NCBI RefSeq assembly: GCF_900141745.1
Contig: NZ_FSRM01000001.1
Span: 1,488,001-1,552,000 of the forward strand
Origin: Paraburkholderia phenazinium
GTDB lineage: Bacteria; Pseudomonadota; Gammaproteobacteria; Burkholderiales; Burkholderiaceae
DNA length: 64,000 nt
Direction: 5' to 3'
The first letter of the stretch is position 1, and each line of letters opens with the position of its first letter. Positions 29,739 through 30,608 of the stretch are shown here, piece by piece. Under the pieces are notes generated by a model, which was not told the DNA's origin, made no database searches, and saw only the letters and a list, made by a program, of their open reading frames with translations. The position numbers and the translations under genes are program-made.

Positions 29739-30263
29739 TTACGCAACCAGGTTCTCGAGCTGTCGATTGACCAGAGGCTCGAGTTCTCGCGCTTCTTTCG
29801 CGAGGTTGACCTGCTTGGCTGACTTCGCCACTTCGAGCACGTCCGGCTTGATGTCATAACCTCCTCGCGTGTTCAACCACGCGAGAACGTCCCACAAATG
29901 CCAGACCGATGGATTGCCCTCGTGGACCGGGATGGGGAAATCGGCGGTATGGCTCAGCATGAGTTTGCGCATGTTCTGGCGCGAGACACCCGCTACGTCG
30001 GCCACGTCCGTCAGGCCGACGAAGTCCGGCGCGGCTTCGACAAGGCGGGCCGACGGCACGGCGCGCTTCACGTCCGCGAGCGCGCTCATCAGCGCGCCAA
30101 GCGCACTGGTACCCTCGCGAGCGAAGACAAGGGCGATGCGCCCCGGCTGCCCGATACCGATCGTTGCATCATCGCATCCTGCTTCCGCCAGACGTTCCAC
30201 GATCTCGTCGTGGTCACTGTCGGCTGCTGTGAGCTGGTATTTCAAGGTGAAGTCGTATTCCAT
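29739..30263 (-). CDS. Candidate antitoxin with helix-turn-helix domain
   Basis: A 174-residue protein in two parts. Residues about 1-80 are an alpha/beta segment (MEYDFTLKYQLTAADSDHDE, then GRIALVFAREGTSALGAL) of the size of a HicB-like fold. Residues about 83-135 look like an AlpA/MerR-type helix-turn-helix (VGLTDVADVAGVSRQNMRKL, ...VWHLWDVLAWLNTRGGYDI), and the tail is charged and helical. It starts three bases after the upstream gene, and its AGGAG ribosome site lies inside that gene's last codons, so translation is coupled. By inference it neutralises the HicA-like protein and represses the shared promoter. No close named family is recognised. Confidence 0.65.
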   Translation of the reverse strand: MEYDFTLKYQLTAADSDHDEIVERLAEAGCDDATIGIGQPGRIALVFAREGTSALGALMSALADVKRAVPSARLVEAAPDFVGLTDVADVAGVSRQNMRKLMLSHTADFPIPVHEGNPSVWHLWDVLAWLNTRGGYDIKPDVLEVAKSAKQVNLAKEARELEPLVNRQLENLVA

Positions 30264-30266
30264 CTG

Positions 30267-30560
30267 TTACTCCTGCTTTTCGGCGTTCTTGTTCGTGCTT
30301 TGAGGCACGCGCTTTTGCCGGTGTGTCGTGCAATTGTCGACTACCCTTTTGAGAAGTCGAGCGTGATTCCCTGGATTCTTAGGCGTACTCCAGACACTGG
30401 TGATGCAGAACTCTCCGCACCGGCATTCCGAGTCGTTGTACGGACAGTACATTTTTCCCCAGGCGTGCCCTTTGCCACCGCTGCTGATGCGCCAGCCGGA
30501 TGCTTCGGCATAGGCCAGTGCGTCTTCAACTTCCTTCTTTGCGTGTGTCCCTCGAATCAT
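30267..30560 (-). CDS. Candidate HicA-like toxin with Cys cluster
   Basis: A 97-residue basic protein. The layout follows HicA mRNA interferases: an N-terminal helix (KKEVEDALAYAEASGW, 8-23), a strand with a Gly/His turn (GGKGHAWG, H32 in the place of the HicA catalytic His), then strands and STPKNPGNHARLLKRVVDN (58-76), resembling the HicA end PxHPgxdlxxgTLrsIl. Unlike HicA it has a Cys-rich insert, CPYNDSECRCGEFC (C39, C46, C48, C52), possibly a metal knuckle. ATG 30560 is preferred because GAGG lies six bases upstream and longer frames would start inside the promoter. Toxicity is inferred, not seen. Confidence 0.6.
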   Translation of the reverse strand: MIRGTHAKKEVEDALAYAEASGWRISSGGKGHAWGKMYCPYNDSECRCGEFCITSVWSTPKNPGNHARLLKRVVDNCTTHRQKRVPQSTNKNAEKQE

Positions 30561-30570
30561 CAATAGCCTC

Positions 30571-30608
30571 ATCATAAGTTCGTTGAATCTGGTTGTCAAG
30601 TGACAACC
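30571..30608 (-). promoter_or_regulatory. Promoter and palindromic operator of the two-gene unit
   Basis: On the minus strand TTGACA (30599-30594), a 17-bp spacer and TATGAT (30576-30571) form a near-perfect sigma70 promoter. An inverted repeat GGTTGTCA-AG-TGACAACC (30591-30608, 8-bp arms) covers the -35 box. This is the layout of an autoregulated toxin-antitoxin operon. The predicted RNA start lies very near ATG 30560, so the message would have almost no leader. Confidence 0.7.

Follow-up and report, generated by a model that had tools for sequence, protein, structure and literature searches.

What is the function of two small, closely spaced genes that recur together in Paraburkholderia and, outside this genus, on islands and phage-plasmids? 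The question is raised by a 64,000-nucleotide stretch of the Paraburkholderia phenazinium genome (contig NZ_FSRM01000001.1, positions 1,488,001 to 1,552,000 of the forward strand), hereafter the window, which carries on its minus strand a 97-codon gene, here called A, followed by a 174-codon gene, B. The initial annotation of this DNA had proposed that they form a toxin-antitoxin pair. Our analysis indicates that A-B is probably an autoregulated type II toxin-antitoxin operon, composed of a HicA-like, metal-pinned toxin and an antitoxin other than HicB, which maintains mobile elements. The toxin-antitoxin reading as such is well supported.

Pairing, decay and selection of the two genes

Both genes match models of PADLOC (A: PDC-M06A, 1.1e-46; B: PDC-M06B, 4.5e-79), so the pair is already catalogued as a phage-defence candidate. 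Homologue searches at E ≤ 0.001 returned 1,024 sequences for A and 2,950 for B, and the nearest named homologues of both are from Paraburkholderia. Many of the searches with A (Pfam, NCBIfam, PADLOC, PHROGs, structures, homologues) used a query lacking the initiator Met, with its end at position 30557. Within the genus, 101 sequences of A gave 812 pairs with a median ratio of nonsynonymous to synonymous substitution rates (dN/dS, Nei-Gojobori) of 0.096, and 105 sequences of B gave 2,048 pairs with a median of 0.108; both genes are under purifying selection. The PADLOC matches, the many homologues and the low dN/dS confirm that A and B are a real gene pair and not a chance arrangement. The layout given by the initial annotation, with the ribosome site of B inside A, agrees with the coordinates and with the AGGAG found there; the A stop and the B start are separated by 3 bp (CAG).

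30267..30560, minus strand: gene A, candidate toxin (HicA-like, PDC-M06A), ATG start, 97 amino acids
29739..30263, minus strand: gene B, candidate antitoxin and autorepressor (PDC-M06B), ATG start, 174 amino acids
30270..30274, minus strand: AGGAG ribosome-binding site of B, within the last codons of A (from the sequence)
30567..30570, minus strand: GAGG ahead of the ATG of A (from the sequence)

The pairing of the two genes is tight. Searches detected A in 109 of 144 congeners, all of which also carry B, and in 108 of these A-bearing genomes the genes share a contig and strand, including G110, where 1.65 kb lies between them. G149 carries two weak remnants on separate contigs, and a remnant of B without A was found in three congeners (G009, G081, G115). 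All 108 loci taken from named genomes (80) and viral contigs (28) have B after A, although L218 carries a truncated B and L170 a broken A. The named loci are the best 80 of at least 550 confirmed places, and many of the viral contigs are near-identical SSU5-type elements and not independent. There is also overlap between the genus survey and the 30 named loci from Paraburkholderia, and L170 and L310 are apparently one genome. A phylum-wide sample of 398 genomes contained A in 23, each with an adjoining B. The same sample yielded a full-length B without A (G569), a second B with a decayed A (G619), and partial or weak matches to B in five more genomes (G391, G519, G682, G765, G803). Thirteen of the 123 matching plasmid and phage records were inspected, and all 13 encode a downstream partner; in Isosphaeraceae EP7 this partner is the N-terminal domain of B alone. 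The initial annotation had named beforehand the regular occurrence of A without its partner as one observation that would refute it; these surveys show no such regularity.

The decay of the pair is asymmetric. Judged by coverage of hidden Markov models (HMMs), 101 of the 111 genus loci (window included) have both genes intact, three have both broken, three keep a remnant of B without A, and four combine a broken A with an intact B (L310, L228, L229, L233); an intact A beside a broken B occurs in none of them. If damage were proportional to gene length, the chance that all four breaks fall in A would be about 0.017. Outside the genus, A is broken and B intact at L026, L380, L387 and L418. Such one-sided decay is the pattern expected of a toxin and its antidote, and together with the tight pairing it bears out the proposal of a two-gene, toxin-antitoxin-like operon. 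Among the loci examined, no intact A was seen without at least the N-terminal domain of B. In L031, and in the short metagenome contig L218, this domain is all that remains of B next to an intact A, which makes the N-terminal domain of B the likely neutraliser. The partner of A at L031:4233-4523, on a planctomycete plasmid, lacks the helix-turn-helix (HTH) of B. Two of the B remnants without A (L227, L230) stand just downstream of what is presumably a penicillin-binding-type endopeptidase gene.

The putative promoter and the proposed operator

The operon has a single promoter-like site, which precedes A. Its -35 and -10 boxes agree with the consensus at 11 of 12 positions, and shuffles of the region yield 0.5 such sites on average.

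30594..30599, minus strand: -35 box TTGACA, inside the proposed operator (consensus match only)
30571..30576, minus strand: -10 box TATGAT, after a 17-bp spacer (consensus match only)
30591..30608, no strand: proposed operator, perfect 18-bp palindrome GGTTGTCA-NN-TGACAACC (from conservation of position)

A palindrome of this type lies 46-50 bp ahead of A in all 101 intact genus loci, in some of them in imperfect form. It is also visible upstream of the other chromosomal loci among the 80 named ones, and in phage-plasmid relatives GTTGACA-NN-TGTCAAC, or a looser form, occupies a comparable position. At the threshold used, no palindrome was found in the phage-plasmid loci L124, L127, L130, L137, L141 and L142 and in several divergent loci. 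An operator defined as a rare word was rejected, since the count is uninformative: at up to one mismatch the pattern occurs once in the host genome and a backwards control also once, and at up to two mismatches 13 of 100 shuffles contain a match. Support for the operator thus comes from its conserved position and not from its rarity, because the control is equally frequent. In L418, the second B copy of G619, A has decayed while B and an intact palindrome are kept. The presence of the palindrome at the promoter of the pair, and its retention with B in this locus, fit a role of B as an autorepressor that would bind it.

Proteins A and B

Protein A is predicted to fold as a-b-b-b-a, with a predicted local distance difference test (pLDDT) score of 74.5. 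The motifs GGKGHAWG and STPKNPGNHARLLKRVVDN and the cysteines C39, C46, C48 and C52, on which the initial annotation had based a divergent branch of HicA, are all present; C77, which it had not listed, turned out to be the Cys that this family conserves best. The helix, the GW, the G-x-H, the strands and the final helix follow one another in the same order as in HicA. H32, which we take to be the position of the HicA catalytic His (G-x-H after strand 1), is found in all sequences of both sets described below, and in a profile comparison with 28 HicA sequences it aligns to the GSH of HicA. Several results make membership of the HicA family less certain. PF07927 gave no match to A with Pfam at E up to 10, the profile match to HicA is weak, structural matches to HicA are modest with tied Z scores, and Foldseek with the model of A returned no significant match. 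A search of solved structures with the A sequence gave nothing meaningful, and PHROGs places A in family 5923, of unknown function. The HicA-like features claimed for A thus stand, and its placement in a HicA branch is suggestive, not conclusive.

Could A instead be unrelated to HicA, a small protein that binds metal and RNA or DNA and came to resemble HicA in topology by convergence? The weak profile match and the modest, tied Z scores would suit such an origin, under which the toxin-antitoxin reading could still hold. Against it stand the shared order of elements, the register of the His, and an operon order as in hicAB, and we consider independent convergence rather unlikely.

The Cys/His cluster of A behaves like a metal site. 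H6, H32, C39, C46, C48, W57, T59, P60, H66 and C77 are conserved in all 101 genus sequences, and C52 in 99. In a set of 73 dereplicated sequences from all sources, partly gathered by patterns containing H32 and C39, or STPK, the residues H32, T59, P60, A67 and C77 occur in all 73 and C39 in 72, and C48 is variable. Position 52 is Cys in 58 and His in 14 of these sequences; position 46 is Cys in 52, His in 12 and a gap in eight, and the alignment of the loop contains gaps. All 12 sequences with H46 also have H52, and such a joint Cys-to-His exchange is typical of metal ligands. The pattern points to C39, C/H46, C/H52 and C77 as the ligands, in keeping with the metal-stabilised cluster that had been suggested, and we infer zinc as the metal.

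In the model of protein B (pLDDT 92.4), a predicted ferredoxin-like domain precedes a winged HTH, and a long helix lies at the C-terminal end.

30024..30263, minus strand: N-terminal domain of B, residues 1-80, predicted ferredoxin-like b-a-b-b-a-b, proposed toxin-neutralising part (model)
29859..30023, minus strand: winged HTH of B, residues 81-135 (model)
29745..29846, minus strand: C-terminal long helix of B, residues 140-173, perhaps for dimerisation (model)

The HicB-like half that the initial annotation had assigned to B is not supported. HicB contains a partial RNase H domain with the topology b-b-b-a-b-a, as described in the consulted text of Gerdes 2024, and the modelled b-a-b-b-a-b of B differs from it, a judgement made on topology and without superposition on HicB. 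Profile comparison with 27 HicB sequences collected by HMM was weak, covering 15 columns at a probability of 1.35%, a result reached by 6 of 150 shuffles. HicB was missing from the VIA list, an absence to which we give no weight. The proposed AlpA-related DNA-binding part fared better: B belongs to PHROG 2620 ('excisionase and transcriptional regulator', 2.9e-17) and has a weak match to an AlpA-family HTH among profiles of the Protein Data Bank (PDB) (E 0.012). Pfam, searched at E up to 10, gave no match for B, AlpA included, and NCBIfam gave no significant match for either protein, with noise alone for B.

Mobile context and the competing explanations

A tyrosine (phage-family) integrase match lies near 39 of the 50 named loci outside Paraburkholderia, and at least four of these matches are weak or short (L158, L177, L181, L201). 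guaA falls inside the stored flank in 32 of the 50, and an alpA gene follows B in 32 of the 39 integrase-linked loci. The recurring start of these islands is guaA-int-A-B-alpA (L187, L173, L178, L365/L450 and similar), and the island of G329 continues into genes for TrbI, CagX, VirB8, CagE/TrbE/VirB, T2SSE and a T4SS coupling protein, that is, into conjugation genes. Eight loci (L203, L204, L205, L206, L209, L213, L215, L217) share about 4.8 kb, including A-B, at 99.96-100% identity, although their hosts belong to Roseateles, Delftia, Pigmentiphaga (two), Paracidovorax, Pseudacidovorax, Achromobacter and an uncultured proteobacterium; such identity between genera is a sign of very recent transfer. 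The integrase of L187 has no match within the stored flank of these eight loci. More distant A-B pairs reside in SSU5-type phage-plasmids. Integrase-linked islands and phage-plasmids together point to element maintenance.

Within Paraburkholderia, the stretch of about 3 kb around each of the 30 named loci contains no match to that integrase. Genus-wide, the pair occupies approximately five chromosomal sites, which rules out a conserved core locus. In the window it lies between lolA and codB; the codB side is common to seven of the 111 genus loci (window included), four of which also have lolA within the stretch. Comparison with four relatives carrying the pair elsewhere did not find the ends of the module at this site: the aligned codB-lolA ends measure about 74 (L438), 215 (L426), 261 (L425) and 737 bp (L430), against about 1.26-1.30 kb in the window.

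Two properties of type II systems are found in A-B: the genes are small and lie in the same orientation in a single operon, and in the loci examined the candidate toxin gene is not kept intact without at least the N-domain of the candidate antitoxin (with four reverse cases among the 111 genus loci). The predicted HTH of B and the conserved palindrome ahead of A may correspond to a third, an antitoxin that binds an operator at its own promoter. In the mechanism that we favour, A would be a HicA-like RNA-cutting toxin with the catalytic H32 on its first beta-turn and a core additionally pinned by the metal site. The ferredoxin-like domain of B would bind and block A, and its HTH would repress the operon by binding the palindrome that overlaps the -35 box. 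Upon loss of the carrier DNA, or arrest of expression, B would decay faster than A, and A would then arrest growth. The pair would thereby stabilise its island or phage-plasmid, and would persist in Paraburkholderia without a nearby integrase.

The same toxin-antitoxin pair could have been selected for anti-phage defence, if infection disturbed B and the freed A stopped phage growth by abortive infection. This is compatible with our preferred explanation at the level of mechanism, and it draws on the listing by PADLOC, on the purifying selection acting on the pair and on the defence role argued for HicA toxins in the consulted text of Gerdes 2024. However, integrase-linked islands and phage-plasmids are the commonest contexts seen outside Paraburkholderia. 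A PADLOC scan of 10 of 66 neighbouring open reading frames gave mad8/HerA matches on proteins that are Pfam conjugation ATPases, and the only other match was a weak one to DrmC (1.9e-05), with no stretch passing alone. The PDC label is itself a prediction, and a full-text literature search for 'PDC-M06' found no paper. We regard defence as a possible but somewhat unlikely reason for the maintenance of the pair.

Other roles within the island seem less probable still. Shi of the integrative and conjugative element (ICE) ICEclc is a divergent HicA-like protein that interacts with ParA and leaves growth unimpaired when expressed alone (PMC6812849, consulted sections); its gene adjoins parA/parB and not a B-type gene. 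Since A is present on at least one ICE-like island, it might similarly be a non-toxic HicA derivative acting only with other island proteins, with B as its regulator. Yet the residue of A at the catalytic position is still a His, A and B occur together in the 30 named loci from Paraburkholderia with no integrase match within about 3 kb, and among the loci examined no intact A was seen without at least the N-domain of B. We consider this role improbable. It is more doubtful again that B is mainly a recombination directionality factor, or excisionase, with A as an accessory and island excision as what the pair controls. The PHROG label of B and the position of the pair directly downstream of the integrase would agree with this, while a separate alpA gene usually follows, the 30 Paraburkholderia loci have no integrase match nearby, the conserved palindrome lies at the promoter of the pair itself, and the N-terminal domain of B can persist alone with A.

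Is the proposed maintenance operon new? The initial annotation had called the system under-described, which is partly true. The PADLOC entries come without a description of mechanism, fold, operator or relation to HicA, although both genes match them far above noise. A homologous pair with the same gene order, on the SSU5-like phage-plasmid Cyrano, is named HicA-HicB in PMC9928086 (2023), where a table of prophage genes in the part consulted gives its expression against background as 14 and 30; the record OV696614.1 is annotated with a HicA toxin protein and a putative antitoxin HicB. Its A protein is 37-38% identical to ours and has His at 46 and 52, and the GTTGACA-NN-TGTCAAC palindrome is found there. 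Given this listing and these relatives, the pair is not categorically new. Our analysis adds the tight pairing and asymmetric decay of the genes, the guaA-island context, the pattern of metal ligands, an operator-like site that is conserved, and for the antitoxin a predicted fold other than that of HicB. PDC-M06 gains a proposed mechanism, operator and mobile context, and A-B becomes a likely maintenance module of guaA-integrated islands. GIsul2, known here by description only (PMC9376610, in part), likewise integrates next to guaA and has int followed by alpA, whereas the islands described here place A-B between the two. None of the papers listed by our literature search was seen to describe a HicA with this antitoxin at guaA.

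HicAB (PF07927; class 3 of Gerdes 2024) resembles A-B in its tight, mobile operon with the toxin first and an antitoxin with a C-terminal HTH second, and its small toxin has, like A, a His in G-x-H and an a-b-b-b-a topology, which for A is a prediction. In contrast to HicA, A lacks a Pfam HicA match and carries a metal-type cluster of Cys and His; in place of the partial RNase H fold of HicB, B is predicted to have a ferredoxin-like domain. Gerdes 2024 distinguishes 14 HicA contexts, and the class list, as far as consulted, does not include this antitoxin; the words 'cysteine', 'zinc', 'AlpA' and 'ferredoxin' were not found in its main text, and its sampling, which began from verified HicA sequences, may have missed A. 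HicA and HicB were described as strictly unique pairs by Makarova et al. 2009 (PMC2701414, consulted sections). If A is derived from HicA, its family is a large-scale departure from this rule and a case in which to examine how a toxin changes its antitoxin. Tentatively, one may picture HicA-type toxins not tied to HicB as a large mobile lineage of Proteobacteria, with members in Cyanobacteria and Planctomycetes, in which a zinc-pinned HicA-like ribonuclease is joined to an unrelated ferredoxin-fold/HTH antitoxin and the Cys/His site makes the stability or activity of the toxin responsive to zinc or oxidation.

The P. phenazinium genome (8.3 Mb, two contigs) has a single match to A. Classical HicA genes (PF07927), with HicB-like genes next to them, are present as well (contig C2, 3620030-3620173 and 2476441-2476605), and A thus coexists with ordinary HicAB in this host.
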